A stretch of 64,000 nt of DNA from Antedon mediterranea (taxonomy: Eukaryota; Echinodermata; Crinoidea; Comatulida; Antedonidae): positions 24,346,365-24,410,364 of the forward strand of contig NC_092678.1 in the NCBI RefSeq assembly GCF_964355755.1. The letters run 5' to 3'. A model generated the notes under the pieces. That model searched no databases. It saw only the letters and a list, made by a program, of their open reading frames with translations, and was not told the DNA's origin. Below, piece by piece: positions 12,901 to 39,400 of the stretch (the stretch's first letter is position 1; the number at the start of each line of letters is the position of its first letter). A program made the translations under genes and the position numbers.

Positions 12901-14872
12901 ATTTGTCATTTGTAATTTTAAAAGATAATTGATTTAATGTACAGGTTTGTTTATGAGTAGTTAAAAAAAAAATATTTCTTTTTAAATTCTCCCGTTTGTT
13001 TTTGGCGTTGCTGTTCTATTGTTAGTCAACTGAATCTATTGTTATTTGAAAGGCTGGTTACATAACCATAACACCGAACTTGCATAGGCCTACATATGGT
13101 TGTAGTGAAATTAGCCTATTCACACAAAAAAAAAAAAAATTTCTGGTAAAATCTTATGTAGGTGAATTTTAAAGTAGGCGGAGGTATGCACACTCGGAGT
13201 GGCGTTTTAGTTATCATTAGTAGTCGGTCGGTAATGCGGCTTCTCAATAATCAATTGGTATTTGAAGAAATATAGTTTCAGCTGGTACTGTGTATATGAT
13301 TGATAATGTGATTGAGTTACTGTACTTACTTCTACACTCTATACCAGCTCTGCGTTCATCGTTACCTTTACACGTGTTATCGTCATCTTGCGCAAGCTCA
13401 AATTCGCATTCATCGAGCGTAGTCTCATTACCATGACAACTGTAGTAGCGTACTTTTATTGGTACACTCGATGCTTTTTTAAAACCGGCATATGTAGCTT
13501 CCAGCAATGCTGTCTGTGCCGGGCAGGCATACAGCTGGTTACAAGCTACGTCTGCTTCTGGCTTCTCCCATCCCGAAGGGCAAATTGCACCCCATTCGTC
13601 GTTTATATATTTTTCTAGCATGCCTTCTCTTTCGTGGCCTTCAGTTTGAAAAATCAAACGAAAATCTAAATAAAACAAACATTGGAAAAACTAATGATAC
13701 TTTTTAAAAAATTCATTCCATTGCCCGATTTAAAAGCTTTTTGGGCACAGAATTAGAGTATGGATACTTTTTAAGCTTGTTTCCTAGAACGCAACGCAAT
13801 GACGTAATTAAACCTCAACTAATTTGACCAATCACAAGGCGATTGATCATCTGAACTGTCGCTTGTATTTTGGTCAACTCATTTGCGTCGTGCGTACGTC
13901 TTTGTGTTGCGCGTACGTGTTTGAGTTGCGTCAAATTGAAACCATTTTTTAAAACCATCATAGTCAATTAAACACCCTCTTACCATGACAATCAGCTTTT
14001 GCTATATCTTCACATGAGTTTATCTCTTTTATGCATGAATCACCAGCCGAATCACTGCTCAGGCATTCCCAGTCAATGCTTGCGAATTTTGAATTATCGC
14101 CTGATGAAACAAGTTGCCGACTTATTGCGTCACTTCCATGAACGCTCTGGCAGACGAAATGCGCAGATTCAATCGACCAGGGGTTTGCGCAGATTGGTAT
14201 CCACTTAGAACCATACCTTACTCGTACAGTTGATGTTAGTTCTGGGTAGTTGTCAAAGCAAAATGCAAAAGGTGTTCCTAATAATAAATAAAATCATATT
14301 AAAACTGAGTAGGCTTAAGGTATATAATTATTACTGTACTGTATATTCAGATGGATACATCATTTATATATAAACCATTCGATGGTATAGGCCTACTCGG
14401 TAGTGTATGTACAGTTTGTTCTAGATCACATATGATACTGCGCGTTAAGTTTGGTTCCCACATTATAGATACGCAACGCATGCGAGTTGACAAGCAACAG
14501 TGTTCGAATAATCCATCGCTTATGATTGGTCAAATCACTTACGTAGGCCGGGTTGCGTACTTGTGTTTGCGTCTCTAGTGGGAACCATGGAATTTATATT
14601 TTGTATAACCAGCAGGAATGAGTGTATACATTTCACTCTTTTCTGGTATAACCCAATAATTAATTGTTCAAAAAATCGTTATATCAGACAGTAGTGACCA
14701 GTTGACCTTCGAATTAAGCCAAAGGAAGAAAGTTAATCCAACGGTAGGCACAAGAAATAAAACAATAGAAAAGTTACTTACCAACCGGCACTTGGTCTTT
14801 ACATGAATTGCTTTTAGTTTCAGCTACACTGATAAAACTTAACATCAACGTTAAACCTACAATTGCTTTCAT
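9945..14872 (-). CDS. Type I membrane protein: 2 SRCR + 2 sushi (CCP) domains
   Basis: Eight exons join in frame to 433 aa: 14872-14782, 14277-13984, 13638-13330, 12240-12052, 11648-11469, 10993-10952, 10771-10678, 10047-9945. Exon 1 encodes a signal peptide (MKAIVGLTLMLSFISVA). Exons 2 and 3 are one SRCR domain each (VRYGSKWIPICANPW; NDEWGAICPSGWEKPEADVAC). Exons 4 and 5 are one sushi domain each, with four Cys and the terminal W...L.C pattern. Exon 6 is a short linker and exon 7 a transmembrane helix (IGVLPAVVASIVMATALAVA...). Exon 8 gives a 34-residue acidic tail, IYELDMDDM then a Glu/Lys-rich end, with no ITAM or ITIM. Exons 2-6 are all flanked by phase-1 introns, as in shuffled domains. 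A surface recognition or complement-regulating role is inferred from the domains; I know no named orthologue. Exon 1 could be one base off. Confidence 0.8.
11096..11222 (+). repeat. CATCATCGT-type microsatellite in intron 5 of the SRCR/sushi gene
   Basis: About three and a half copies of a roughly 36-bp block: TCATCATCGTCATCAC, TTTTTCATTATCG. A 119-codon plus-strand frame over it is a product of the repeat. Confidence 0.85.
11684..11828. mobile_element. MITE family 1, copy in SRCR/sushi intron 4
   Basis: Starts GGGTTCCCACTAGGACGCAA and ends GTGAGAGAACCAATC, with GACCAATCACGACACGATGG and TTGTGATTGGTC inside. Intron 4 of the SRCR/sushi gene lies at 11649-12051, so it sits between the two sushi exons. 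Confidence 0.75.
12561..13198 (+). mobile_element. CCTCCGCC-ended repeat element, copy 1
   Basis: A 640-bp element beginning TACCTCCGCCAAGGAGGTAT and ending AGTAGGCGGAGGTATGCA, so both ends carry the inverted CCTCCGCC motif. It lies in intron 3 of the SRCR/sushi gene. Another copy is at 56701-57313 in inverse orientation, alignable along most of its length (AACTACTTGTCCAAAAAACT, TGTACAAGAGGCAAGAGTTA). No coding capacity. Class of element not determined. Confidence 0.75.
13772..13947. mobile_element. MITE family 1, copy in SRCR/sushi intron 2
   Basis: Degenerate termini AAGCTTGTTTCCTAG and AATTGAAACCATTTTT. The body keeps AACGCAACGCAATGACGTAA, TTGACCAATCACAAGGCGAT and a duplicated GCGTACGT segment near the right end. 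Confidence 0.65.
14446..14592. mobile_element. MITE family 1, copy in SRCR/sushi intron 1
   Basis: Termini TAAGTTTGGTTCCCAC and CTAGTGGGAACCATGG. The body carries ACGCAACGCATGCGAGTTGA and ATCCATCGCTTATGATTGGT. Confidence 0.7.
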
Positions 14873-18101: not shown

Positions 18102-19406
18102 CTACTTTTCTAAAACATGATATACCGGTTCAGGTGCATGCATTTCATATCGAGTGTTCAGGCTGCTTTCATTTGTTGCTCCCTTGTTGTTATTCTTGTT
18201 TGGGATGGCATATAGAGGCATTTGGCTAACATCGGTGGTAGTCTTGTTTGTTGTACTTTCATCACGCTTTTTACCAATTTCTTGGAGACTAATTTTAATT
18301 TCCGACTTCTTAACAACTATTGCAACAATAATACCAATAATTAACAGCACTACCAGGCATCCAATAACCCATTTTACCCAAATCAGATCTGCTACCTCGT
18401 CGTCGTCTTCAGGTTGTTCAGAAGTGACGTTTAGATAAGCTTGTCCTACACCAACCGCATTTTCAATCTCGCATTTAAGCATAAGATCAGTATTCATTTT
18501 GTCCATCAATGTCAAAGAACTACTTGTGTTGTTTAGCATCTCACAAGAGTCAATTGACGAGTTTGATCTGTTCTCTGAGGTTAGGCAAACTCTCCATCGA
18601 AAAGAAACGTCACTTGGATATGGAGTTGTTGTACTTGTACACTTAAATTCGCTTCCCTTAACCTCTTTGATCTCTGCTTGTGGTTTCACCAACATAGACG
18701 TTGAGCAGTTGACGGGCTCTGGCAACATATGATGAAGCACCACGCACCAGAATCTCCCGCCATCTAATCCACTGACATTAACTTGGAAACTATGTTTGAC
18801 GTCATCAATGGCATTTGATTGTGTTTTGTCAACTGATATAAGAGGAACCGATTGACCTTCTGCAGATTTCAAGATTGTGATGTTTACAACGATATTTGAA
18901 CCGATGTCAGCGGAACAGGTTAGGTTGAGATCCTGAGTAATTTCGTCGGGAGTTTGGCTATTTAAAGCAATGCGTGGTGTTTGAAACAGTTGGCATTCAA
19001 CAGAAGGAGAGTTATGTAAAAAACCCACTGTTAGTGTTATGCCACATGCAAGTATATCTCCGTTCAGTTGGCAAATATAGGTACCTTCGTCTCTACGCTC
19101 TACGTCTTTTATTATCAGTTCATATGTTCTTCCAATAGATTCTGGCGTGGTGTACTTAATCACTTGTTTACCATTTTTTAGATATTGAAGTTCTTTGTCA
19201 ATAGGTTTTTCATATAATAACCATTGTACGTCTGTTGCTCTACTTTTAAATGCTGTGCATTCTAGTGTGACTGACGGTTGCCCATCAATTGCATACACGT
19301 GACCATTCTCAGCTTCATCTCTTATGGCACATGATAATTCAATTGTTAAAATACTGATAATAAGATGCAAGTTATCCAATCTAAAATTTATTCTAGATTT
19401 CTTCAT
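18102..19406 (-). CDS. Intronless three-Ig transmembrane receptor, gene A of an inverted pair
   Basis: Single exon of 434 aa. I start at the ATG at 19406 (MKKSRINFRL); two codons upstream only an in-frame GTG extends the frame, and gene B starts at the matching ATG. A hydrophobic N-terminus (LHLIISILTIELSCA) is the signal peptide. Ig1 has SVTLECTA, a Trp (VQWLLYEKP) and DEGTYICQL. Ig2 has LNLTCSA and GGRFWCVV. Ig3 has SEFKCTS, SFRWRVC and LMLKCEIENAVG. Many Asn-X-Ser/Thr sites are present. The TM helix is WVIGCLVVLLIIGIIVAIVV. The 64-residue tail is basic then polar, with tyrosines in PLYAIPN, TRYEMHAP and PVYHVLEK. Surface immune receptor or adhesion function is inferred. No named family is recognised. 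Its mate is at 21831-23177. Confidence 0.88.
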   Translation of the reverse strand: MKKSRINFRLDNLHLIISILTIELSCAIRDEAENGHVYAIDGQPSVTLECTAFKSRATDVQWLLYEKPIDKELQYLKNGKQVIKYTTPESIGRTYELIIKDVERRDEGTYICQLNGDILACGITLTVGFLHNSPSVECQLFQTPRIALNSQTPDEITQDLNLTCSADIGSNIVVNITILKSAEGQSVPLISVDKTQSNAIDDVKHSFQVNVSGLDGGRFWCVVLHHMLPEPVNCSTSMLVKPQAEIKEVKGSEFKCTSTTTPYPSDVSFRWRVCLTSENRSNSSIDSCEMLNNTSSSLTLMDKMNTDLMLKCEIENAVGVGQAYLNVTSEQPEDDDEVADLIWVKWVIGCLVVLLIIGIIVAIVVKKSEIKISLQEIGKKRDESTTNKTTTDVSQMPLYAIPNKNNNKGATNESSLNTRYEMHAPEPVYHVLEK

Positions 19407-19520
19407 TTCCACTAAATTTCTATTTTATTGGAGAAACTTTGATCATGATACAGTGGCACGTCACACCATACGATCATTCTTTTCAATTGCTGTGAAATCA
19501 CTCTGTTTGGGCGTCTGAAC
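19407..19520 (-). promoter_or_regulatory. Promoter of Ig gene A, shared with gene B
   Basis: Reading towards the gene, this segment carries AATGATCGTATGGTGTGACG, TGCCACTGT, CAAAGTTTCTCC and AGAAATTTAGTGGA just before the ATG. The same blocks in the same order precede gene B (about 21762-21830). TGACG is a CRE/ATF half-site. Conservation between paralogues supports a regulatory or leader role. Confidence 0.55.
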
Positions 19521-19740
19521 GACGTCTTTTCTCAGTTATATAGATTTATTGTAGGCGTTTCTAATAAAAAATAATTAAAGACAGAAACAAAAGTGAGAAA
19601 TTGTAATGGTTGTCAGTTTGATTTGAAATTTACAGTACGACATTTGTATTAGGCTCTTTACGAAATCGCAGTACAGTGCATCATATCTCACTTGGACATG
19701 GCCCTCCTACGAACAGTACCATGGAGAAATGATTTATGGT

Positions 19741-19932
19741 AGTGTAACACTCTGCCCATCAGGTCAAGAACCCTTTTTCACTATTTCTCCCTACTCCAGC
19801 TATTAACATTCCTAGTGGTTTCTTCCTGTTCCTAGGTACTCTTTGTTCACTCTGCTATAACCCACATCATTAATCAGTCACTGTTTCCTCATCGTCAAGG
19901 AATGTTTCCTTGTTCCCCTCCCAGAACATGCA
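19741..19932 (+). repeat. 200-bp direct repeat, left copy
   Basis: From TAACACTCTGCCCATCAGGT to CCTCCCAGAACATGCATAT, roughly 90 % identical by eye to 21261-21473 and in the same orientation. The pair lies between two genes that are inverted to each other, so it is not simply part of the inverted duplication. Short LTRs of a miniature retrotransposon are possible (a TG start and CA near the end), but no target duplication is seen. Confidence 0.7.
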
Positions 19933-21260
19933 TATTAATTAGGACCGTTCCTTAAATATGGATGTACTGGTAAAAAAAAGATAATAAAACGTTTATAATA
20001 GAGAGAAGAAAACGTATGTGATATAGCCAGAACAGACTGTATTACATTGAATATTGAAATAAAACTGTGTCTGGACAAAACCATATTTACTGTTAGTACA
20101 CTATGTGACTGTGTGACATCCTATAGTAACGGATGCACAAAAATACCACCGTTACAACTGGTTCCCACACCGATTTGGACCCACAGAAGCCGATAAAATA
20201 TTAAAAAAATTTAAAAAAAAGAAGATAAAACACGCAGCAGATTGCAGTTTGCAGAGTTTGTGGAGCAGCAGATGTTGATGGCTGTATGAACCTCGACAAA
20301 GAAGAGCAAAAGAAGAAAAAAAAGATTATTGAATGGAACAATTGTCGGACCAGCCCCAAGAATAGAAAACGGAATACAGAAAAGAAAACAGCGAGGCCAA
20401 GGAAGAAGAAAGAAGACAATCATTAACTGCTCTTTCGACTATTTGTTTCACTTTCTTTTGACATTTTTGTAACGTTTTATGTGAACTTATACAATTTTTG
20501 GAGTCGCATATGTAACTTTTATAACATTTTGTTTGTGGAGGGCCTGGCTAATTTTTTTAAAACATTATTTTGGACGTTAGCCTATATTCAACTTTCTGTA
20601 TCAATTGTTTTGTCTACATTTCTTTCATTTGGATTGAACACAATATTAACGATGTGGAAGTGACCCATCATTTCTAGTTCTTTTCTATAACCTTCTCTTT
20701 CTTCTGGTGATATACTGTATTATTATTATAGATATAATCATATTGTAACATTGCTTAATTATTACCTTGTGTACTAACTCCGCCGTACTTTACGACAACT
20801 TTTATAAAAATATTTGACAACGTGTTACGATGTATACTACAGTATATCATCATTCTTTTTACTCTACTTTACTTGTGTTTTTCAATCTATACTTCCTATT
20901 CTCAATGATGGTTCACTTTTCCATAAACTCATTTTGATTAATTGCATGTTTTAAAACTTATGATATTTTATATTTTTTTTTATATATATTCCCTATACTT
21001 ACATAATATATATTGCATGTTGACGAGTTTTTAATACTTACATTTATTTTTAATTAGTAGTAGAAGTAGTAACGTATTATCATCACTATATTTTGATTTT
21101 GGAATGATATTTCATTCCCTTTACTTGATATTACTTGATTTTGTTTTTTAAATTTAATTAACTTACAGTTTTAATAATTTTCGCATTTACTTAATTACTT
21201 AATTTCCTTTATATTACAATTACAATTTAATATACGAAGTGGGACACTTCTTTGGTAGAG
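19933..21260. other. spacer between the two direct repeats
   Basis: AT-rich. A Lys/Arg-rich plus-strand frame ends at about 20424; it contains a CRVCGAADVDGCMN segment but no start or domain I can defend. No retroviral-type gag or pol sequence is visible. Confidence 0.35.
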
Positions 21261-21473
21261 AGGGAATAATATAACACTCTGACCATCAGGTCAACAACCC
21301 TTTTTCACTATTTCTCCCTACTCCAGCTATTAACATTCCTAGTGGTTCTTCCTGTTCCTAGGTACTCTTTGTTCACTCTCCTATAACCCACATCATTAAT
21401 CAGTCACTGTTTCCTCATCATCAAGGAATGTTCCCTTTACTAAATAGTCCCCTCCCAGTACATGCATATATCA
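21261..21473 (+). repeat. 200-bp direct repeat, right copy
   Basis: Same sequence as 19741-19932, with a few substitutions and an extra TTACTAAATAG segment near 21440. It ends about 360 bp before Ig gene B. Confidence 0.7.
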
Positions 21474-21761
21474 AGAACAAGTGGTGCGTTTATGAAACAA
21501 ACTATTTTTAATACCATGTACTGTAATACATACAAAAAACATACAGATATACAATTACAAAGAAAAACTTACCAAAAATTTAAACAATAGGATAATTGAA
21601 AACTTTGTTCAAACTCTCTTGGTGTAAGATTTGCAAAGGATATCAACAGATTTATTTCACACTTAATAATAACAATCGTTCAGGAAATCATCACCGGTTA
21701 AGCCAATCAAATGAAATTACTAGAAACAAAAGCACGCCCAGCAACAACACAAAAATTTAAA

Positions 21762-21830
21762 CGAATGATCGTGGTGTGACGTGCCACTGTGTCAAAGTTT
21801 CTCCCAATAAAAAAAGAAATTTAGTGGACA
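21762..21830 (+). promoter_or_regulatory. Promoter/leader of Ig gene B
   Basis: Carries GAATGATCGT, GGTGTGACGTGCCACTGT, CAAAGTTTCTCCCAATAA and AGAAATTTAGTGGA, the blocks also found upstream of gene A. Similarity to gene A fades upstream of this segment. Confidence 0.55.
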
Positions 21831-23177
21831 ATGAAGAAATCTAGAATAAAGTTCAGATTGGATAACTTGCATCTTATTATCTGTATTTTAACAATTGAAT
21901 TATCATGTGCCATTAGAGATGAAGCTGAGAATGGTCACGTGTATGCAATTGATGGGCAACCGTCAATCACACTAGAATGCACAGCATTTAAAAGTAGAGC
22001 AACAGTACAATGGTCGTTATATGAAAAACCTATTGACAAAGAACTTCAATATCTAAAAAATGGTAAACAAGTGATTAAGTACACCACGCCAGAATCTATT
22101 GGAAGAACATATGAACTGATAATACAAGACGTAGAGCGTAGAGACGAAGGTACCTATATTTGCCAACTGAACGGAGATATACTTGCATGTGGCATAACAC
22201 TAACAGTGGGTTTTTTACATAACTCTCCTTCTGTTGAATGCCAACTGTTTCAAACACCACGCATTGCTTTAAATAGCCAAACTCCCGACGAAATTACTCA
22301 GGATCTCAACCTAACCTGTTCCGCTGACATCGGTTCAAATATCGTTGTAAACATCACAATCTTGAAATCTGCAGAAGGTCAATCGGTTCCTCTTATATCA
22401 GTTGACAAAACACAATCAAATGCCATTGATGACGTCAAACATAGTTTCCAAGTTAATGTCAGTGGATTAGATGGCGGGAGATTCTGGTGCATGGTGCGTC
22501 ATCCTATGTTGCCAGAGCCCGTCAACTGCTCAACGTCTATGTTGGTGAAACCACAAGCAGAGATCAAAGAGGTTAAGGGAAGCGAATTTAAGTGTACAAG
22601 TACAACAACTCCATATCCAAGTGATGTTTCATTTCGATGGAAAGTTTGTCCCAACTGCGATAAAAGATCAAACACGACAAACTCTTGTGAGATGCTAAAC
22701 AACACAAGTAGTTCTTTGACATTGAAAGCCGCAATTGATACTAATCTGTTACTGGTCTGCGAGATTGAAAACGCGGTGGGTGTAGGACGCGCTTCTTTAA
22801 ACGTCTCTGAAGCAGTTGATAACACAGTAACAACTCTCATTAATTGGGTAAATTGGGTTATTGGAAGTTTGGTTGTGTTATTGGTAATTAGTTGGCTAGG
22901 GTGTTTTTACCTACTATGTGCACGCAGGCAATCAAGATGTTCAAAACCCCAGGATGTCACCAATGACGTCACCGACGACCAATACACTAATCTTCAACTT
23001 GATCAAATGCAGCAACAAGATATTAGAATGTCATCTACTGCACTAGACACAGATGGAATTAGAAATGTCTTTATCAATGACCAATACACTGGTTTTCAAC
23101 AACATGAAGATCTTCGAAAGTCAGCTACTGCAACAAACACTGACGATGCTCAGTATATTAATGTCCAAAACAGATAA
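21831..23177 (+). CDS. Intronless three-Ig transmembrane receptor, gene B of an inverted pair
   Basis: Single exon of 448 aa from the ATG at 21831. Signal peptide and Ig1-Ig2 match gene A with only about ten differences in the first 275 residues (for example WCMVRHPMLPEP against WCVVLHHMLPEP). Divergence starts in Ig3 (SFRWKVCPNCDKRSNTT). The TM helix (WVIGSLVVLLVISWLGCFYL) is related but changed, and the tail is unrelated to gene A. It starts ARRQSR and holds three spaced tyrosines: DQYTNLQLD, DQYTGFQQ and AQYINVQN. Two of these are pYxN-type (Grb2-like SH2) sites; YTNL is also YxxL. The first two lie in imperfect tail repeats of about 30 residues. The outer domains suggest the same ligand as gene A and the tail suggests a different signal; both points are inferred. 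Confidence 0.88.
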   Translation: MKKSRIKFRLDNLHLIICILTIELSCAIRDEAENGHVYAIDGQPSITLECTAFKSRATVQWSLYEKPIDKELQYLKNGKQVIKYTTPESIGRTYELIIQDVERRDEGTYICQLNGDILACGITLTVGFLHNSPSVECQLFQTPRIALNSQTPDEITQDLNLTCSADIGSNIVVNITILKSAEGQSVPLISVDKTQSNAIDDVKHSFQVNVSGLDGGRFWCMVRHPMLPEPVNCSTSMLVKPQAEIKEVKGSEFKCTSTTTPYPSDVSFRWKVCPNCDKRSNTTNSCEMLNNTSSSLTLKAAIDTNLLLVCEIENAVGVGRASLNVSEAVDNTVTTLINWVNWVIGSLVVLLVISWLGCFYLLCARRQSRCSKPQDVTNDVTDDQYTNLQLDQMQQQDIRMSSTALDTDGIRNVFINDQYTGFQQHEDLRKSATATNTDDAQYINVQNR

Positions 23178-24479: not shown

Positions 24480-27400
24480 TCAAATTGTGACGTCAAGACT
24501 AGTTGTTGCTAGCTTCTTCTCAGAAGTGTGTCTACGTTGCGGCCAATTCACTTCGGTTTCCACCAGCTTTCTGTTATTTCGTTCAAACCAATAAAAGTCC
24601 TCGCTGCTCCAAGCTTTCAAATAAAGCAGTTGCTGTCTTGGTTTTGCTGAATGGTTCTGTTGAGCAAGTTGAATCATGTCGGACTCGCATACAGGGGGCA
24701 GCAGGCGTGACGCAATCACTTGGTCCGACCCAATTGGTATAAAGTTTTCCACAATACCGATATCGGTCTGGGTAAGATTGTATGTCGAAATTAACCCTAA
24801 CACTTCCCCATATTTGTAATGGAATGGACTATCCTCATGAATATTAATGATGAGAATATCACCATAACTACGCCCCACCCATAGCGTATCCTTGACAACT
24901 AATAATGCTTTGATTTTACAAGCTGTTTGAGAATTTTCCCTAAGAAATTCTGTGTATGTTTTCCCATTTTTCTGCTGGCCCCAAATATGAACACTTGAAC
25001 TCGAGTTTCTGATTGGTTGTTTACGCTGCTCACCCTGTTCATCATCATTTTCAGAATAATGTCCAAAGTTAAATGCTAATTTACGATCTTCTTCTTCTTT
25101 ATTATCACTTTCGCTGACCCCAGAATCATCCATGTCTTGTGACTCATTTGACCTCAACTTTAACCTTCCACCTTTATAAGAATTGCCTGTATCCATGGTG
25201 ATGACCCAGCCCTGTGCTGAATCAGAGCAATGGAAGGTGGTAACACATTTGCGAGTTCTGACGTCATACTGATACACGTTGGCAGGGGAGCCACAAGAAC
25301 ACCATAGCTTATTGTCTTTCAACTCCATGACCTTCACTGCCATATTCTCGTTCTCTCCGCATTGAACTGGTTCTAACTGGTTTAGATCAACACAGCTTAT
25401 TATATGAATAAAATTCTTTGATCCTATCCAGATTTCGTTAATGCTTTTCACACTGACCATACAATTGCATGGCTCATGGTCCATATTTAGGGCCATGGTC
25501 TTGACCAATGTCCAATCAGGGGGATTTATCAATGGACCATCAATACTGTCTTTTTCCTCATACTTAAATATAGATAACTGACCATCATCAAGGCCAATGA
25601 AAATGTGATATGAAGATGAGGTGTCATCCTGTATATAAAAAAAATTGTAAAATTACAGTCACAGTAATAATATAAATTTGTTTGAAATTAAGTTTTTTAT
25701 ATAATTCTTCTTGTTTGTTGTTTTATTCTAGTCATCATATAACAAAAAATATAACCTCCTTGGCAGAGGTTATAATAAAATAAAATTGTATACTGTATGT
25801 CTGGTTTTCCATAGAGTCTGGTAAATCGGAATGTATTTTTAAGATGGTCAAAATGAATTTGGGAACTTTTAGACTTTGAGCATTATCTGGTTTTGGGAGA
25901 GTTTCCGGTTTTCAGAGGAATGGGAGAGTCGACTGTATTAGTTTAGTAAGCATGGAATCCACTTGTAAAGTTTAGGATGCGTGTTTAAATAAAAACAATA
26001 GTAATACCTTTTTTGCATACGTCATACAATTAGGGGCTGACGATAAGTTCGTTTTGCATAAGATTTCAGAATGTTCCATTCCACCTGCAGGGGTGGTCAA
26101 AACTTGGATCACTCCATCTCTGCCGGTCTACATAGAAAATTTATGTAAATTAGAATTAAGTATAGATTATAACTTGGAACTCTACATTATTATTGAATTA
26201 GGCGCTCTGTTCTCTGTAAGGCGCCATATAAAAACTTGTATAGAATAGAAAAGTATCCTTTGGGTGGATGTGATTGGCCAGATTATAATTGTATATTGAA
26301 ATCTAACCTTTGAACCCAAGATGATACTTTGACCTATCTTGATCATGCATGTGACTGTAGATCCCTGTATATTTTTTTCTTCCATTCCAATTTCTTTTTC
26401 CTTTTTTCTTGATGTTCTTCTAAGTTTACGGAATGTTGATGTTCCTGTCCAAGTCCATAATTCATATGTTCCCTAAAATTGTGAATTTATAAATGAATTT
26501 ATAAACACGCATTTTGTTATTTATGCAAAGAATAACATAAAAAATGTTATGTGTATTTGAAACATAGTACATCAACGGCTGAATGACTCACATATAATGC
26601 CACTGCTAAAGCTCTGTCTACACTATCAAACTAGTTTGACAAAAAAAGTGTGATGTGCCCAAATATGGTAGTGATATACCTAAATATGGTAGTGATATGA
26701 CATCATCATGTCCATATGGGCACATCACATTTTTTTGTCACATAAAGTTAGTGTAGACAGAGCTTTAAACTTATCTATTTTTAGTGTTGTCGCTAGGAAG
26801 TTTAGAATTTCTCCTTATGTTTACATTTTCTCTTAGGGCGGCATGTATAATATGAACTGTGATATTGGCATGTGGGACACAATAATATGTTACAGAAAAG
26901 TGCTCTGACCTTTACGCTATTAAAATGTAGCATTGTAATAACCAAATGATGTGGACTGATATAACAATGTATTTGCTAGATTTACTCACTGTGTTAGTGA
27001 CAGAGCTGTAGATACAATCAATGGGTTCCTTATGCTCTATAACCTGCTGGATTACTAGGAAGCTAGGGTCCTTAAATGCTGTTAGTACTTCACCTATAAA
27101 AGGCCTAGCTTGCTGGTCATCTCTCCAACATGCCTATCAAAAGATAAGAATGTAATGGTCAGTTTGACCAGTAACCATTCAGTTACTATGCAGTGATTGT
27201 TCAAAAGATAAAAATGTAATGGTCAGTTTGACCAGTAGCCATTCAGTTTACTATTCAGTGATTGTTTTTTTCTTATTGCTGATTGTTTTATAGTGTTAAT
27301 GTGTAGGCCCTATTAAATCAACTACTAACTATTTTGATAAAGAAACAAATTGTTTTTCTTTTCTTATCTTTTACCATTATGCTATTTTAAACTTTAATAT

Positions 27401-30400
27401 CATAATATCTGGTTATAGAAACAAAGAAATAACAATTATAGGGCCTGTTTCTGCTGCAACTGCTCAAAATACGGTATAAAAATACGGTATAAAATACGGT
27501 ATTTTTTATACCGTATTTTTTAGTACCCCGTTTCTGCTAACAATACTTCTTGGGTGGTCGTGTTAAATTTCATCTTTTTTACCCAAATTGCCATTCATTT
27601 ATTTGATCGATAATTAAAAGTCGCAATAAAGGAAGTTTTACGTCTCACTTTCAACAGCCTAGCCCTAGTGATAGAGATGTTGTGAGAGCACAGAAAACAT
27701 CGTAATGGGGACAATTAATTTGTTCCCTCCCCGAGTTATTGTATTTTGCAATGTTGTAGGCCTACTGCTTTCGCAGGCTCTTCAGCTTTGAGTTTACTTG
27801 CTTTGGAGACAAGTTTATTCCATACTCCTGCTTTATTTTTTTAGAAATGTCTTTATAAATGTGGTTGTCCCTTTTATTACCTTTTAGTTGGTCAGACATT
27901 TTAGCTTCCCCACACACATTTATTTAGTAAAACTGTGACGTATTCGCTCCACATTTTCGCCGAATATATCTATACATGTGTGTAAAGCAGCTAACAGCGA
28001 CAGAAAATAAAAACACGAATGGTGACCTTTTGTCATGTAAAAAAAAAATACGGTATATTTTATTGGCAGCAGAAACGGGTACAAAAAATACGGTATAAAT
28101 TTGTAAATACCGTATTTTATCCACAAATTTTGTTGGGAAAATACGGTATACAAAATACGGTATATTTTTTATGAGCGCAGTTTCTGCTGCCAAAAATATA
28201 CCGTATATATACGGTATTCAAAAAATACCGTATAATATACGGCATTTAGTTGGCAGCAGAAACAGGGCCATAGAAACTAAATTGTCAAAACTAAACCATT
28301 TCTTATGTTTTTATTAGGCTTTTGTTAGTAATAACAATAATAAAACACAACAGTTATTACTGCACTAAGTGCAATAACACGAAATGCACTCAATACGGAA
28401 GAGAACTCAGCAATGACCATATTAGGAGAGCTCAGCAATGACCATATTAGGAGAGCTCAGCAATGACCATATTAGGCAAACTTTATATAATAACCATATT
28501 AAGGAAAACATGATTTTATGACCATATAAGGAAATGTGGCATAATAATATTGTGATGTCATTAAATCCGAGAGCAGATACATTAAAAATAAAACAGGAAA
28601 TAGATAGAATACTAGGATAGTGACTATATCAGTACGGCAAGCATTTATAATGATTATTAATGTTATCAATTATTGTTGTTACCTGAACAATCTCCTCAAG
28701 ATGTGGGAATTCTGGTACCACATTGAATTCTTTGAATTTGTAACCTGGTCGTTGGTTGTTCCGTATCGCCATGGAGATCTCACCTCTTCCTTGATCATGG
28801 AATGGAGGCATACCTGTTAGTAGATGGTACAGAACCATTCCATAGGAAAAAATATCAACCTGGAAATCAAGAAAAATTAATAGTAATTTTAAAATAACAA
28901 TTAAAACAAGGACATTATACCATTTAGTATACAAAATTTTAATTTTTCTTCTTTTTTAATTCTTTTCTTTTTTCTTAAAAATGTCTTTTAATTTGTCTTT
29001 CAAGTGTCCATTTTACTTTATTATGAATTGAATAAAATATAGATGACATTATTATTGGAAAACAAATAATTAGTAGTGACTGTTTACCTTTTGGTCAAAG
29101 GTCATCCCTCTCTCTACTTCCGGAGCTCGAAATCCTGGCGCACCCTTCGATGTCCTAACCCCTTGCATGATGTTCACCTTTGAGATGCCATAATCTGTCA
29201 TTTTCACATTTATCTTATCATCCACATTCAGTGACCAAAGCAAAACATTGTCTGTTTTCAGATCACAGTAAATGATGCTTTTCTTGTGTAGATAAGCCAA
29301 AGCACATGCTATCTGGTTTGCAATCTTATAAGTTAGCTTCATATCTAAGGGGGAACCCTGCTCAGCAACTCCAAATTTCGCTAAAGCACATCGACGACTG
29401 TTCTGATCATCCAGATATGACATGAGGTCACCGTGCGGAGCATACTCCATTGCGAAACAAAGTTTTGAAATTGATAAACCAATAAGAGAGACGATAAATG
29501 GATGATGTAATCGAGACATCAAAGATACTTCTGCTCGCAGTTGTGAAAGACTTCTAATGATGTCATTGATTTCTTTCTCTGAGAGATCTTCCACTGATGG
29601 CAGTCCAAGAGAGTTTGTTCTTGATTTGCTTTCTTCTCCTCCAGATGATGACTGGCTGTGAGTTCCTTCTCTCCACACCTTTGATTTCGACGGAGCTGAA
29701 TGGTATTTCTTGACAGCAACAATCTCCATCTTGTACTTGGCTTTATAAACAACTCCAAATCCCCCAGAATTCAACTCCTTAATTAACTGCAGATGGTCGT
29801 CATGGATTTTCGTGACTGAGATGTCTTCCAGAAGCAGATCTGGAACTAGGAACTTCAGTGGAACTTCTTGTTCAACATGGTTTGGACACTTTAAGTACAT
29901 TGCGTTTGTGCACACAGCTACAGCGCACTCTGTCAGTGTGAAAGTGTGGATAGAGCCGTCGGATACTGATTGGCGAACGCTCACGTCGCCTTTCTGTTTC
30001 GAAAAGCAATCTGAACAAAGTACAAGACGTTCTAACAACTTGGTACCACCCAGTATATCATCACCACTAAACCCTAGAAAAAGGAAAAAGATTCGTACAT
30101 TAAATCGCAACACATACCCTTTCCACATCTGCATATATAAAATACATTGTTTAAAATACAAAATACAAGCAAGATTGATGTGTGTAAGGGTATAGCAAGA
30201 TTGGTGTGTGTAAGGGTATAGCAAGATTGATGTGTGTAAGGGTATGGCAAGATTGGTGTGTGTAAGGGTATAGCAAGATTGGTGTGTGTAAGGGTATGGC
30301 AAGATTGGTGTGTGTAAGGGTATAGCAAGATTGATGTGTGTAAGGGTATAGCAAGATTGGTGTGTGTAAGGGTATGGCAAGATTGGTGTGTGTAAGGGTA

Positions 30401-33400
30401 TAGCAAGATTGGTGTGTGTAAGGGTATGGCAAGATTGGTGTGTGTAAGGGTATGGCAAGATTGGTGTGTGTAAGGGTATGGCAAGATTGATGTGTGTAAT
30501 GGTATAGCAAGATTGGTGTGTGTAAGGGTATAGCAAGATTGGTGTGTGTAAGGGTATGGCAAGATTGGTGTGTGTAAGGGTATAGCAAGATTGGTGTGTG
30601 TAAGGGTATAGCAAGATTGATGTGTGTAAGGGTATAGCAAGATTGATGTGTGTAAGGGTATAGCAAGATTGGTGTGTGTAAGGGTATAGCAAGGTTGGTG
30701 TGTGTAAGGGTATAGCAAGATTGGTGTGTGTAAGGGTATAGCAAGATTGGTGTGTGTAAGGGTATAGCAAGATTGGTGTGTGTAATGGTATGGCAAGATT
30801 GATGTGTGTAAGGGTATAGCAAGATTGATGTGTGTAATGGTATGGCAAGATTGGTGTGTGTAAGGGTATAGCAAGATTGATGTGTGTAATGGTATGGCAA
30901 GATTGATGTGTGTAAGGGTATAGCAAGATTGGTGTGTGTAAGGGTATAGCAAGATTGGTGTGTGTAAGAGTATAGCAAGATTGGTGTGTGTAAGGGTATA
31001 GCAAGATTGGTGTGTGTAAGGGTATAGCAAGATTGGTGTGTGTAAGGGTATAGCAAGATTGGTGTGTGTAAGGGTATAGCAAGATTGGTGTGTGTAAGGG
31101 TATAGCAAGATTGGTGTGTGTAAGGGTATAGCAAGATTGGTGTGTGTAAGAGTATAGCAAGATTGGTGTGTGTAAGAGTATAGCAAGATTGGTGTGTGTA
31201 AGAGTATAGCAAGATTGGTGTGTGTAAGGGTATGGCAAGATTGGTGTGTGTAAGGGTATAGCAAGATTGGTGTGTGTAAGGGTATGGCAAGATTGATGTG
31301 TGTAAGGGTATAGCAAGATTGATGTGTGTAAGGGTATAACAAGATTGGTGTGTGTAAGGGTATAGCAAGATTGGTGTGTGTAAGGGTATACTGTAGCAAG
31401 ATTGGTGTGTGTAAGGGTATAGCAAGATTGGTGTGTGTAAGGGTATAGCAAGATTGGTGTGTGTAAGGGTATAGCAAGATTGGTGTGTGTAAGGGTATGG
31501 CAAGATTGATGTGTGTAAGGGTATGGCAAGATTGGTGTGTGTAAGGGTATGGCAAGATTGGTGTGTGTAAGGGTATGGCAAGATTGATGTGTGTAAGGGT
31601 ATAGCAAGATTGATGTGTGTAAGGGTATAACAAGATTGGTGTGTGTAAGGGTATAGCAAGATTGGTGTGTGTAAGGGTATAGCAAGATTGGTGTGTGTAA
31701 GGGTATAGCAAGATTGGTGTGTGTAAGGGTATAGCAAGATTGATGTGTGTAAGGGTATAGCAAGATTGGTGTGTGTAAGGGTATAGCAAGATTGGTGTGT
31801 GTAAGGGTATAGCAAGATTGGTGTGTGTAAGGGTATGGCAAGATTGATGTGTGTAAGGGTATAGCAAGATTGGTGTGTGTAAGAGTATAGCAAGATTGGT
31901 GTGTGTAAGGGTATGGCAAGATTGATGTGTGTAAGGGTATAGCAAGATTGGTGTGTGTAAGGGTATAGCAAGATTGGTGTGTGTAAGGGTATAACAAGAT
32001 TGGTGTGTGTAAGGGTATGGCAAGATTGATGTGTGTAAGGGTATAGCAAGATTGGTGTGTGTAAGGGTATAGCAAGATTGGTGTGTGTAAGGGTATAGCA
32101 TAAAATATTTCCATGTTTCATTGAATTGCCTCATTGCAGTAGAGAGAAACGAGTTTCTCATCCTATTGGTTTTCCATCTTGGGTACACTAAACGCCCTGT
32201 CTTACTAAAGACAAGGTAATGGTGGACGGAGGGATCTGACATAATTACTTTAAATGTTTTACTTATGGCACTGTTAACAAGTATAGCACATACAGCAGAC
32301 TTACCTGGATACCATTCCTGTATCAACATCTCTATCTGATCCACGATGAATCCCATTGGAGAGAAATCACCAAAGTAACTTTCAATGGATATACTGATTC
32401 CCATAGATCCATCAGGATAAAAGTAGTAAGGCTCGACAATAAAGAAGCCCTTGTTGCCTCCCTGCGTGACAGCAATCCCTTGACGCCAGTAGATTGTCTG
32501 ACGTCCATCCCATTTAAAACCTGCCATGATAAATGACTGCCGTCTGTAAAGGAAAAAAGAAAAGATAAAACTAATATTGTTAAGTTTTCTGCAAATAACC
32601 ACAACTGAACTTCGATTGTTTTTTATATGTTTTTGGGGTATTTACTGTATTTATTATCTCGTTTTGCTTTTGATGTTGTTTTTACCATTTTGTAAGTGTA
32701 AAGCGATATGTAAATAAAGCTTAATATAATAAATAAATACCAATACTAAAAAGAAGAACTGGATGGCTTGATCAATCAAATCAAATGTCAATGCTATTAT
32801 TGGACAAACATGACAAAGATCATGAATTTATGATTTTGGACACTACAGTATTACGGTGCTGCTCTGTTTGCAGCTGCAACTCCTTGACCATTTGTGTTTA
32901 ATAAATGAATGAAAAAATACATGTATAAACTAATTTTGTAAAATTATAATTGCGAGAAATTTATATAACAAAATGCCATAAGGGAACATGTACAGGTTAC
33001 ATCAATAGTTTTTTTTATTTAGAAAAGAAGACATTATGAGATGCTTTTATTATTTTATTATTTGACATCTGGTCGATGTCAATTTTTTATATAACAAAAT
33101 TTCATAGGGAATATAGGTTACATCAATAGTTTTTTTTATTCAATTACAAGTAAAAAAGAAGACATTATGAGATGCTTTAATTACTTGACAATGGTTGATC
33201 CTCCAAGTGTCATGTTCCTCAACTTCTTCCTGACATGCTTAGAACTGTTGCCACTACCGGTGCTCTCAAGCCATTGCAGGTTGACGATGAGCCTGGACAC
33301 AAGACGACTCCAGAATCCAGTTGGAATGAATGCCATCTTGTACAGTCGTTGGATCTTCAGCGACTTCTTGCCAAATTTTGTTGTATTCAAGATGAATCCT

Positions 33401-36400
33401 GGTTTCTCTTTTGGGAGTTTTGATGGAATTATAAATCTAAAAGTTGATAAATTATAATTGTCACATTGTCATTTTATATTGTCAAATTTGTTTAAGCCTA
33501 AAACAAGGTTTATTTACTGTTTTTATTGACCAATATGAGGACATTTTGAATGGCAAAAAAAAACGATTGTTTAAAAGATTTGTTTCTTACTTGTTGTCAT
33601 CGTATGGTAGAATAATTTCAAATCTAGCCAGCAACTGTATGTATCGTTCGGTCAAATCATCCCTGCATCCATTTTTTGATAATAGTTCCTTTAATGTGTT
33701 CTTCTCAATTCTTCCCTGTTCTACCTAAAAATGCATAACATTGTAGAAATAAATTTACGCCACAACTAAACATTGTTTAGAAATTGCTACTGATCAGGTT
33801 GTTTTAAAAACCTAAAGGTTTGTTTTTGATACATACTATAAATTTAGAACACAACTAACAAAACACACTGACCAATCAGTCTATTTTCCGATACTTACTA
33901 AATGAGGCTGCAATCTGGTTACAACAGACAGGATGCTACTAAGCCAAGCTGGTTCCAGGAAATAGACTGTGTTCAAACCATGAAGCTGCTCATTGTAATG
34001 TAAGATGGTTCCAGTGTGGTTAAGAAAAAGCACCGCTGAAAAACAAGGAAAGAAACTGTCAGCCTAAATGGAAAACAAAACTCGCTCGAAACATTGCAGC
34101 CAAGATCTTTGAAGGATTGCATAGTATAGTAGTATGAATAAAGACTAGTAAAGGTAGTTGTAGTAAATGTCTAAGTGTGATGTGTCTAAATATGGTAGTG
34201 ATATGCTCAAATGTGGTAGTGATATGACATCATCATGTCTATATATGGGCACATCACACTTTTTTTGTCACATCAGGGAGGGTGAACTAACCTTGTTGGA
34301 GGTCGTCGTCGGTGGAGATGTCGTTATCTGGTATTTGCTTTACAAGTTCGTTCAACTCTACCTCCGTCATCACGGGAGGACGAGCGTCCTCTTTTGCTGA
34401 TTTTAGTAGCTGTTCTTTCATGGAAAGAATCTTTTCTCGTAACTTGATATAACTCAATGGAATCTGCAAGATAACAAGATTGTTGAAAAATACAAGATTT
34501 CGTGAGAGCAACGGAAAACAATGTTACATGATGCATACCTGGTACTTTGGAACCATTTTTAGCTCATCATAGGAACTACTGCTCCTATAGTAATCAGGGT
34601 ATACTACGTGATATTTGCATTAAGCTGAATAGTGGCCAGGAAATTAAACTTAACATTAGTTACCTGTTTATGAAGAAGCCTTTCTTTGCCATCTGTTAGC
34701 ATAGTAGCAGCGGTGTAGATCAACTCCCTTAGCTTGTTAATAGGATCGCTGGTGGGCTGTGTGGCTGCCAGAGTAATCACTCCATCTATATGGGGGTAGC
34801 CATCCTTGTGGATGAAGCTGGATTTGATATGCTCCATCAATTTCTGTTTGTCTTCGTTTGAACCGGTGTAATCGTCTTTATGAGTGGCTACGAGAATTAC
34901 GTTTGACTTTGGTGCCCTGGCCTGGAAAATTAAACAAATTGGAAAATCAATTTTTAAAATAAACATGGACGTAGAAGGTAGTATGACTGTGGTTCTAGCA
35001 TGATACAAAAGAAACGAGTTGCGGTCTTTTTACCTGAATATTCAGAAGATGAGGTCGTAGCTTCTCAATTCCTTCTATACCTTCCGTCATATCCCACACC
35101 GCAAGATAGAGGGCGTATGGGGTCAAAAAGCACTGATTAATTGTGTCAAATTTCTCGGCTCCTGATAAATCCCAATAGGTAACCATAATATCAACATCCT
35201 GAAAAGAAATTAATAATTAGATCAGTAAAAATATATCTATTAAAATGAATCACATTCGTTCACGTTTTTACAGTTTTTAAGGTAGTGGTACCATACATTT
35301 TAATAGCAATATGTTGTACACTAGCAAGCAGATAAGAGGTTTAAAACTATCTGGTACGAACCTTTGCAGATTTTTTGTTAGAAACATTTCGCAATTTCCA
35401 TTCTCCAATGTTGATGCATGAGTTATCAATCTTGGTCTCTAACACATCCTTCTTGGACACCTTCTTAAGGCTTGCTAACAGAGTTGTTTTACCACTTTTC
35501 TAATAAAAGAAACACACATTGTTCTATTAATACTGTCAACTTGTGTGTCCTCTTAATAGAGGTGTCCCCTTGAGTACGGGTTAGCCTTATTAAGGGGACA
35601 CAGTGGCCGTATTCACCAATCACACTTAAGTGAGATATTTCCCTTAAATTTTAAGTATTTCACTTAAATTGTATTCACTTAAATAAGAGATTTTTTTTTA
35701 TTTTACGGGTAAGTGTTTCCCTTAGCCTAAGTGTGAATGGTGAATACGGCCACTGTCCTTTTAATAGGGGTGTCCCCTTCAGTACGGGTTAGCCATAGTG
35801 CTCCTCATTCGTTTTACAGGAAAGAGTCTCCTTAGGGTTGTTGTCCTAAAGGAGGGGTTCTAATCTACCCAATATCACTACCTAATATGACGTAGTAGAA
35901 GTAGTAGAAAATATCAGAAACAAGTTTTTATTTTGCTGAATATTGTAATGTGTTTCAGTTTCTCACCTCCGGACCAACAATAAGCAGTTTGATTCCAAGA
36001 TGGCGGACAGCTTTTCGTAAACTATTCCTCAGGTATCGCAGAACATCTTTTGTTAGTACTTTCTTGGACACAGCTTCAGGTATCAAGTGTTGTGGTAGAT
36101 TGGTCGGGCGCACACCTTCAAACCGCAAGATGTCCAAGTTCTTTAAAAGTCCAAGTTCCTCTGGAAGAGTTTGTATTTTGGAATTTCTGTAAAGAAATGT
36201 TACACAAGTCAATAATGTGCATTGACTTTTCTTAATAATACGGTTAACTCTCCCAATACCGGACACCTTTGGGCTGGCGTAATATGTCTGGTTTTCTGGA
36301 AAGTCTGGTAATCAGAATGTGTTTTTAATGGTAAAAATGAATTTGGGACTTTTTGGACCTCAAGAAAAGTTTGATTATGGGAGAGTTTCTGGTTTTCAGA

Positions 36401-39400
36401 GAGTTCGGTATAATTTTTTACGAAAGAAAGTACACTCACCCGCTAATGTCCAGTTCAGCCAAGGAACACATTGTACTAATTCCGTCTGGGACTGCTTCTA
36501 TTGAGTTGTGAGCTAAGGACAGGATGGTCAGACTATCTTGTATCTCAGCTGGGAAGTCTAGTGAAGTCTGCGTTTGAATATTGCACGATTGTTCTTCTGG
36601 TGAGGAAGAGCTGAAAGCGCGGATCGACAGAAAATTCTTCCGCAGTTTGGATAAAGATGATCTTTAAGAGAAAAAAAACATTCAGTGATGTGCCCATCTA
36701 TGGACATGATGATGTCATATCACTATAATATTTGGGCATATCACTACCATGTTTGGGCATATCACTTTTTTTGTCAAACTAGTCTGATAGTGTAGACAGA
36801 GCTTTACAATAACAACAAATATAATTGTTACGACTTTTATTATTAGTATGCTATTAATAGTTAACTCAATTTTCACAATTATTTTTTTTCCAAAATACTT
36901 CACGTATCACAAAGCATAAGTTCAGTTCTCAACAAATAGAGATTTACATTACTTTTTGATGTGTGTATTTTCATATTGGTATACTACCCTCTATAATCTA
37001 ATTATTTCTCGTTGACCACTTACTGTTCAGGTGAATGTATTTGCTGAGGTTGATGAAACACCAACAAGTTATGAGACAGATCCAAGTGCTTTAACCTTTG
37101 AACCTTCCAGTCTTGCATTGTGGGTAATGATACAATCTTATTGCGAGATAACTTAAGTGAGTTTAGAGCTATGAGTTCAGTGATGCATTTTGGAATTACT
37201 TCAACGCCGTTGTTGGCAAGGTTTAAGTACTGTAGTGTTCGTTTCCAGAATTTGTCAAAGTCAGGAGGCAGAGATTCAATTGCGTTATATTCAGCGTGAA
37301 GTCGCTCCTAAAAAAAACAAAAAATGTACTTGATATATGAATTTATTTCTTGTATCCTATTCAAAAGAGTAGGGATAATGAGGTCATATATAGGGTATAC
37401 GAGTAGGGATTGCTGGTGTTGTGTACTGAAAATGCTCACAGCGAAAGAAGATGAGAAAAATAAAATAAAAAATGATAAAGATCGGAAAAGGGAAATAGCT
37501 ACTTTGATAATAAAAACAGCTAGAGGCTATTCAGAACTACATTACCACAATGGGAAAAATGATAATGTGAACGCGTGGGCGGACAATGCCAACGTGCTTC
37601 AGTATAAAGACGAAATGAATGAAAGAAAACATTAAATATAATCTTACCAATGGACAGTTCCAACTGGACGGCAAAGATGTCAACTTATTGTACGCAATAT
37701 TCAACTTGGCAAGTTGTATAGCACCTTCTATTGCTTTAGGGATGGCTGAGAGTTGATTACGAGAAATGTCGAGATCGGATAAAGCGGGGCATTGCCAAAG
37801 ACCAGACGTTGATGACTTTGGTAGCGTGGTGAGAAGATTACGTGACAGGTCGAATTCCTGTAGGTGGGGTAAATTAAAGTAGTTCAAGGGTACAGCATGC
37901 AACTCATTTCTAGACGCATTAATTTCAACAAGCCTACATAAAAAAAAAAATCATACATTATTATTTTCTGAAAGAGATTACAAATATTTACTCTATTGTG
38001 TAAATTGAAAACTTAGGTGTGTCTCTGTTAAAATTACCTTGAAATTATTATTTTCTGAAAGAGATTACAAATATTTAATCTATTGTTTTATTTGAAAACT
38101 TAGGTACAAGTGTGTCAAAATTACCGTGAGTTACTGGAAACGTCTGGCTGAAGAGGCTCAGGCAGACTCTCTAGCCAGTTGTTAGAAATATCAAGCACTT
38201 CCAAATATGGATGTGACCAGATCAATTCAGGCGGAACACGACGCAGGTCATGATTATCTGATAGGTCGATGGAAAACAGATATTCGCTGTATGTAGGCTC
38301 CTTAATCCAGGTTCCAAGAAAGCCATGAAGACCTCTACCACTCCAGTAGGCTTTCAATTTCTAAAATAATAAATTAAGTTTTTTTTAATTTAATTTGATA
38401 AAATGTTATAAAACAATTTTAATACAGAGAGTTCATTATACTTTCAAGGACATAGTTTGACAAAAAAAAGTGTGAAGTGCCCAAATATGGTAGTGATATG
38501 ACATCATCATATCCATATATGGGCACATCACATGTTTTTGTCACATAAAGTTTGATAGTGTAGTCAAAGCTTTACCATAATAGTATGTGGGTTGTAGGAC
38601 AAGAACCACTAAATCCTATTACAGAATGAGCCTAAAATATCCACTAATTATCTATGCTGTTCAAACATCAACACTCCTTTAAAGCTCTGTCTACAATATC
38701 AAACTTTATGTGACACAAAAATGTGATGTGCCCATATATGGACATGATGATGTCACATCACTACCATATTTGGGTATATCACTACCATATTTGGGCACAC
38801 TTTTTTTGTAAAACTAGTTTGATAAGTATAGATAGAGCTTTAGGCACTGGGCGTATCTTTTAATCATGATTATTGTATTAGTAATCCTTGACCATGCATG
38901 GTGTTAACATACTGTACTTCCCTTCAAATCCAAGGGTACTGGGTTCAACTCAAGGTCTACTCTATAACCAGGATGTTATTCATGGCTAAAAAATAATCTA
39001 TCATTCATTATAATGACGGATTATAAAGTTTCTAAAGCACTATTAAACTAGTTTGACAAAAAAAGTGTAACATGCTCAAATATGATAGTGATATACACAA
39101 ATATGGTAGTGATATGCATATATATGGTAGTGATATGCCCATGTGATATGATGTCATCATGTCTATATATCTATTGTTTTTGTCACAAACACATTTGATA
39201 GTGTATACAGAGCTTAACAGTTTCAACATCATAGTTTCTTTTGGTTAGATTCTTTCATAAATTACTAAAAAAAGAATGTTGTAGTTGTTAATACTACCTG
39301 GGATTCCTGTCCGTAAAGTTGTACCCATCTCTCCATCAGGTTTGTCATTTCGTTTGGGAACATTTCAATGATTTCCAAAGTGACATCTTGAAGTTTATTT

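Follow-up and report, generated by a model that had tools for sequence, protein, structure and literature searches.

A head-to-head pair of intronless immunoglobulin receptor genes with a near-identical front and unalignable tails in Antedon mediterranea

We analyzed a stretch of 64,000 nucleotides of the Antedon mediterranea genome (hereafter, the window; C9:24346365-24410364 of a 354-Mb assembly in 18 contigs, with all comparisons made within this single genome) that contains two intronless receptor genes, designated A and B, arranged head-to-head. Each predicted protein carries three immunoglobulin (Ig) domains; the two are almost identical from the signal peptide to the start of Ig3 and end in cytoplasmic tails that cannot be aligned. 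The common front is best attributed to gene conversion between the two copies of an older inverted duplication. That A and B are such a duplicate, with a front homogenised by conversion, and that their proteins act as paired receptors is the interpretation that we favor with moderate confidence. The genes are located as follows.

18102-19406, minus strand: gene A, intronless coding sequence of 434 amino acids with signal peptide, Ig1, Ig2, Ig3, a single membrane helix and a 69-amino-acid tail
21831-23177, plus strand: gene B, intronless coding sequence of 448 amino acids with the layout of gene A and a tail of ≈82-87 amino acids

The original prediction of a head-to-head, intronless three-Ig pair ≈2.4 kb apart was confirmed. 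Both frames are stop-free and intact across the near-identical front and the private tails, and the two start codons are 2425 bp apart by coordinates, where the ATG of A is at 19406 and a GTG listed at 19412 lies two codons further upstream. Pfam Ig models match both proteins, most strongly at Ig1, and Ig2 and Ig3 were assigned by cysteine pattern and alignment to relatives. The protein starts are signal-peptide-like, and each protein has one membrane helix. A search of PDB sequences with B returned weak matches only (best E 5e-4). A and B are intact, intronless, three-Ig, single-pass receptors.

Identity between A and B was determined base by base, and the following segments were delimited.

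18604-19406, minus strand: putative conversion tract in A, covering signal peptide, Ig1, Ig2 and the Ig3 start, from the ATG to ≈+803
21831-22630, plus strand: putative conversion tract in B, partner of the A tract
18744-19108, minus strand: A copy of a 365-bp identical stretch, +298 to +663 from the ATG
22126-22490, plus strand: B copy of this stretch, matching A without mismatch
19407-19494, minus strand: upstream/5' untranslated block of A homologous to B, ≈76-81% identity
21748-21830, plus strand: upstream/5' untranslated block of B homologous to A, ≈76-81% identity

The resulting profile is stepwise. Measured in 50-bp windows, A and B are 94-100% identical in nucleotide sequence between the ATG and +803; identity then drops to 76%, returns to 96%, and stays at 67-80% until ≈+1100, at the membrane segment, past which it is 36-60%, the level expected by chance. 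On the other side, the two 50-bp windows just before the ATG are 81% and 76% identical, and beyond the upstream block identity is 40-56%, the level of unrelated DNA. The step at ≈+803 falls at the start of Ig3, where divergence had been predicted to begin, and the common upstream block of 83-88 bp found by blastn lies within the ≈70-110 bp of common promoter that had been proposed. The protein alignment contains 11 differences through column 275, one of them an indel, which agrees with the prediction of about ten in the first 275 residues, and 9 differences in the first 271 columns. Overall, the ectodomains are 89% identical and the tails 17% identical. This profile, together with the counts of silent and replacement changes given below, excludes uniform divergence over the whole gene, the outcome that the original prediction had set against itself.

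Matching silent sites are a sign of recent copying rather than of selection on the protein. Fourfold-degenerate sites differ between A and B at 0/104 positions in codons 1-267 compared to 5/22 in codons 268-345, which encode Ig3 (Fisher p = 1e-4). Nei-Gojobori estimates of silent (dS) and replacement (dN) divergence are 0.034 and 0.015 for codons 1-140, 0 and 0.012 for codons 141-250, 0.33 and 0.093 for codons 251-279, 0 and 0.067 for codons 280-300 (a short patch with 13 sites), 0.55 and 0.36 for codons 301-345, and 1.29 and 0.62 for codons 346-375; in the tail, dS is saturated and dN is 1.10. An identical run of 365 bp was reached in 0 of 20,000 random placements of 76 mismatches in 1110 bp and in 1 of 20,000 placements of 22 mismatches in 840 bp. 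The original prediction attributed the common front to a kept binding face. The front is indeed nearly identical, but because its silent sites are identical too, a conserved binding face is not needed to account for it. Moreover, homology of intermediate identity on both sides of the tract points to gene conversion inside an older inverted duplication. A recent duplication of the whole gene was ruled out, since similarity is clearly lower in the tract flanks and the tails are unalignable.

The two tails are as follows, where ITIM and ITAM denote immunoreceptor tyrosine-based inhibitory and activation motifs, both sought by pattern scan (ITIM as [SIVLT]xYxx[ILV]).

18105-18311, minus strand: A tail, with a basic start and three tyrosines (YAIP, YEMH, YHVL), without ITIM or ITAM
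22929-23174, plus strand: B tail, with spaced QYTNLQ, QYTGFQ and QYINVQ motifs, all of them Yxx[LFV] and two of them YxN, without ITIM or ITAM

As predicted, the tails do not align: their local protein alignment score was equalled by 761 of 1000 shuffles, and the score for tail plus 3'-flanking DNA by 27 of 300. Tails simulated at 24% divergence, which is the Ig3-like step, scored at least 287 in 50 simulations, compared to the observed 26. Searches of the genome for relatives of each tail gave strong E-values for A and B themselves only, with other matches at E 0.66 to 5.14, so that no tail donor was traced for either gene. With its three QY[TI]x[LFV]Q motifs, the B tail resembles one used for phosphotyrosine docking. 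Two of these motifs (YTNL, YINV) contain YxN, which we take to be a Grb2 SH2 motif, and B probably recruits SH2 proteins. The A tail is basic close to the membrane and contains one YxxL.

The same combination of a common front and different tails was found in two other gene clusters. In the C6 cluster (C6:28.88-28.97 Mb), the ectodomains of C6_28930271 and C6_28937479 are 97% identical over the aligned part and have a dS near 0 (one silent change across the first 280 codons), and their tails are 31% identical where alignable. The C6_28930271 tail ends in a C-terminal ITIM (SLYLEI), and the C6_28937479 tail contains six Yxx[IV] motifs without an ITIM. By nucleotide sequence, the closest relative of C6_28930271 is C6_28937479 for the ectodomain (99.0%) and C6_28900365 for the membrane segment and tail (95.0%). 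In this cluster, 28948253 forms two further cases, with 28952022 and 28959383; an additional one, 28924095 with 28955050, is less clean since one tail is short. In the C10 cluster, C10_18090074 and C10_18097212 have ectodomains that are 97% identical where aligned and tails of 246 residues with 11 tyrosines and 28 residues with 2 tyrosines, respectively, although the short tail may have been damaged. Among pairs whose ectodomains reach 80% identity, measured over the longer sequence, the tails fall below 35% identity in 4 of 6 cases in C6, 1 of 1 in C10, and 0 of 51 in four arrays on C3 described below. In an uncontrolled count that includes near ties and short or broken genes, the nearest relative changes between the ectodomain and the membrane segment plus tail in 11 of the 16 C6 frames and 4 of the 5 C10 frames kept. 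For C6, 6 of 22 frames had been dropped (fragments, broken genes, one duplicate reading truncated where the locus ends, and frames that lack an early methionine or a clear membrane segment) and C6_28921311, which is the 3' portion of a gene that has a stop close to its beginning, was retained; for C10, the five frames longer than 300 amino acids were kept and shorter and broken frames excluded. In A/B, C6, and C10 alike, the switch point lies between the Ig3 start and the membrane segment, with Ig1 and Ig2 left undivided. The same outcome in C6 and C10 implies that A/B is not a lone accident and that a common front with different tails would be a recurring product of recombination among intronless receptor genes rather than a one-off.

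The tails of the 16 C6 genes were also sorted by eye into seven of class I, eight of class II, and one of neither class. ITIMs occur in 4 of 8 class II tails and 0 of 7 class I tails (Fisher p = 0.077), and the class II tail of C6_28900365 additionally matches a loose ITAM pattern. Across this cluster (L033-L035, L046-L060), the two tail classes, one often terminated by an ITIM and the other with five or six Yxx[IV] motifs, are found on related and on unrelated ectodomains. C6_28966350 and C6_28970315 have ectodomain DNA that is 100% identical over 999 nucleotides and membrane-segment-plus-tail DNA that is 93% identical. In the C10 cluster (C10:18.076-18.110 Mb; L012, L014, L026, L041, L042), the C10_18090074 tail looks mosaic by eye, with a first half like C10_18076204 and a second half like C10_18087016.

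Besides one another, A and B have eight weak relatives in the genome (25-31% identity), six of which, on inspection by eye, resemble three-Ig receptors encoded in a single frame. One of these relatives, used as a query, gave at least 106 matches, at least 94 of them on C3, and these counts are lower bounds. Among the matches listed, 105 of 106 lie within open frames of at least 390 residues and 104 of 106 lack an internal stop. A and B have a single open frame, three Ig domains, an extra cysteine pair in Ig2, and one membrane helix, as in this superfamily. In an alignment of 11 members (one of which, L010, is shorter and without a clear Ig3), C137, C163, and C220 (B numbering) are invariant and C233 is conserved in at least 90%, where C137/C233 is the extra Ig2 pair. 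A and B are outliers of this large superfamily of intronless Ig receptors. In its tightest arrays, the genes lie on the same strand and span ≈1.7 kb each.

The C3 arrays follow the opposite rule to A/B. In four arrays with 50 genes (14 of 15 used from the 18.73-18.76 Mb array, 8 of 9 from 18.766-18.784 Mb, and 18 of 18 and 10 of 10 from the other two), 315 of 317 pairs compared within an array have tails that are more similar than their ectodomains, or 314 of 317 when identity is taken over the longer sequence. Median ectodomain identity is 45-76% across the arrays and median tail identity is 93-98%, and silent divergence is lower in the membrane segment and tail too. In these C3 arrays, the tail is the homogenised part. 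Dense same-strand arrays of intronless three-Ig genes with a near-constant membrane segment and tail and diversified ectodomains occur at C3:18.70-18.91 Mb, 11.87-11.90 Mb, and elsewhere (L017-L025, L027, L028). At C2:37.98-38.06 Mb (L036-L040), members lie on both strands, and 4 of 5 tails have 9-17 residues with at most one tyrosine.

We propose that an ancestral intronless three-Ig receptor gene was duplicated in inverted orientation long ago to give A and B, and that the segment from the start codon to the Ig3 start was recently homogenised, silent sites included, between flanks that differ at about a quarter of their sites. A and B would then present the same ligand-binding face, formed by Ig1 and Ig2, and report binding through different intracellular partners in the manner of paired receptors. 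Conversion between the neighbors would maintain a common binding half, and the tails would be shaped by selection or exchange. A broader version of this interpretation, which we put forward tentatively and hold a little short of probable, is a modular system in which conversion reassorts ectodomain blocks and tail blocks among over 100 intronless Ig-receptor genes, such that paired receptors arise independently and repeatedly. Some arrays would combine a constant tail with many fronts, and A/B and other clusters would place different tails (with an ITIM, with multiple Yxx[IV], or short) behind a single front, following the logic of vertebrate paired receptors.

Several observations weigh against the paired-receptor interpretation. 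The combination of the same binding half with a different tail fits the original prediction of a paired-receptor system, but its activating/inhibitory label is unsupported for A/B. The pattern scan detected neither ITIM nor ITAM in the A and B tails, so that the pair has the similar ligand-binding domains and different tails of paired receptors and not the ITIM in one tail. Moreover, the lysine of A is not in mid-helix but two residues beyond the hydrophobic segment, where B has an asparagine. Ig2 contains three clustered replacements (V/M, L/R, H/P) with zero silent changes within those 30 codons, which could reflect binding faces that are drifting apart. The structure of B predicted from an alignment with A alone had a mean pLDDT (predicted confidence score) of 36.6, too low to locate the binding face. 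Homologous tails simulated at 45% divergence scored as low as 20; given the scores at 24% and 45%, the A and B tails either have separate origins or have diverged by ≈45% or more, and they may share a very ancient common descent. In addition, ectodomain identity hardly correlates with tail identity in C6 (r 0.09, 120 pairs), but this was withdrawn as evidence, because the C3 control arrays also gave small values (r 0.35, -0.27, 0.02, and -0.07).

Gene conversion can occur neutrally between inverted copies that lie close together. A and B may thus have been homogenised as a by-product of their proximity, with unrelated jobs or with one copy a dispensable duplicate, an explanation that we consider unlikely, though it is the strongest competitor to the paired-receptor interpretation. 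Close copies convert readily as a general rule. In the accessible text of PMC5701461, the same is described for genes 9 kb apart. The homogenised tails of the C3 arrays also indicate that homogenisation per se is not biased to the binding half. Conversely, both A and B frames have stayed intact through the tract and their private tails, and the recurrent switch between the Ig3 start and membrane segment in A/B, C6, and C10 spares Ig1 and Ig2 as a whole.

Recent copying of a front half onto the Ig3 and tail of another gene, with no old A/B pair, would explain why the tails and 3' flanks lack detectable homology, and the C6 and C10 chimeras show that fronts and tails recombine. Yet the flanking blocks, 76-81% identical upstream and mostly 72-80% identical in Ig3, require an older duplication that began upstream of the ATG and extended as far as the membrane segment, which makes this explanation improbable. 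The high amino-acid identity of Ig1 and Ig2 is what purifying selection alone would produce, but the silent sites match equally well and are not a product of protein selection; we give this possibility almost no weight. It is similarly hard to credit that one copy is a misplaced haplotype in the assembly, as both copies lie on one 26-Mb contig and differ in their tails, Ig3, and flanks.

The spacer between A and B contains two copies of a dispersed repeat.

19745-19935, plus strand: copy 1 of a dispersed ≈198-bp repeat, in the A/B spacer
21272-21469, plus strand: copy 2, 91% identical to copy 1

These copies enclose an insertion of ≈1.7 kb (19745-21469) that resembles a long-terminal-repeat (LTR) element. 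The repeat occurs at no fewer than 40 places in the genome, both window copies counted, and among the listed copies, seven more same-strand pairs are spaced 2.8-3.4 kb apart, as in LTR elements. Before this insertion, the start codons of A and B were probably ≈0.7 kb apart, a spacing that makes a common regulatory region plausible. Elsewhere in the window, translations inspected by eye show exons resembling an LRRK-type gene at 24480-44118 on the minus strand, with ankyrin, leucine-rich, GTPase, and kinase (with DYG) regions and a WD40-like C-terminus. A minisatellite (Tyr-Thr-His-Gln-Ser-Cys type) at 30074-32130, with three open minus-strand frames and a GC skew of 0.73, is located in or beside this gene. 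An SRCR-like exon lies at 13244-13690 on the minus strand, and a separate Ig V-like exon with a hydrophobic stretch downstream lies at 63109-63639 on the plus strand, both recognized by eye.

The closest known match in logic is SIGLEC11/SIGLEC16. According to the parts of PMC5701461 available to us, these genes lie head-to-head, and all primates that were examined show conversion around the exon for sialic acid binding; the Siglec-11 protein is inhibitory, and Siglec-16 acts through coupling to an ITAM adaptor. As in A/B, the N-terminal Ig part is converted, the 3' part is less similar, and the signalling halves differ (PMC5701461, in part). A and B have the head-to-head arrangement, homogenised 5' part, and divergent 3' part of this type. 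By contrast, an upstream stretch is homogenised too in SIGLEC11/SIGLEC16, whereas the A/B upstream block lies outside the most similar tract, and Siglecs have introns and bind sialic acid, whereas A and B are intronless, lack ITIM and ITAM, and belong to a different Ig family (same parts of PMC5701461).

Among invertebrates, the original prediction knew of no such pair in a deuterostome. This statement needs qualification by the Botryllus FcoR co-receptors, opposed receptors with ITIM or hemITAM tails (PMC12065747, in the portion available). FcoR/fester are, like A/B, Ig receptors of an invertebrate deuterostome in a large clustered family; FcoR/fester tails carry an ITIM, a hemITAM, or a Yxx[ILV] core, and the signals are opposed. 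In the same portion of PMC12065747, however, FcoR differ in that their partner is another type of gene (fester), their architecture is Ig-sushi-Ig, and they are alternatively spliced, and twin genes with a converted ectodomain are not described. The Hydractinia Alr genes, which PMC12065747 also mentions, are invertebrate allorecognition genes with ITIM/ITAM-type motifs, but form a cnidarian allorecognition complex. The statement stands for pairs of the A/B kind: in the accessible parts of the open-licence literature searched, we found no pair of invertebrate genes that combines a converted ectodomain with differing tails, and nothing relevant on arrays of echinoderm or intronless Ig receptors or on echinoderm paired receptors.

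The wider superfamily pattern is more interesting than the A/B pair by itself. Paired receptors are usually treated as a vertebrate device, and genes with the sequence logic of paired receptors are present in an echinoderm genome. Tektin exons of this genome likewise point to an echinoderm: of three exons compared with the PDB out of four, two match tektins of 8snb, a sea-urchin sperm axoneme entry, far better than the next entries (211 compared to 135 bits, and 199 compared to 137 bits), whereas the third is closest to tektin-3 entries (138 bits) and reaches at most 107 bits with 8snb; most of the other entries are mammalian. A search of the assembly for mitochondrial COX1 gave 0 matches. This one genome displays both directions, a constant tail with variable fronts and a constant front with different tails. 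Since the genes are intronless, fronts and tails could be exchanged through plain conversion, and a change of signal with the target kept becomes directly testable. If the modular interpretation is true, then reassortment of ectodomain and tail blocks would have given rise to paired receptors of vertebrate logic independently in the Antedon mediterranea genome.

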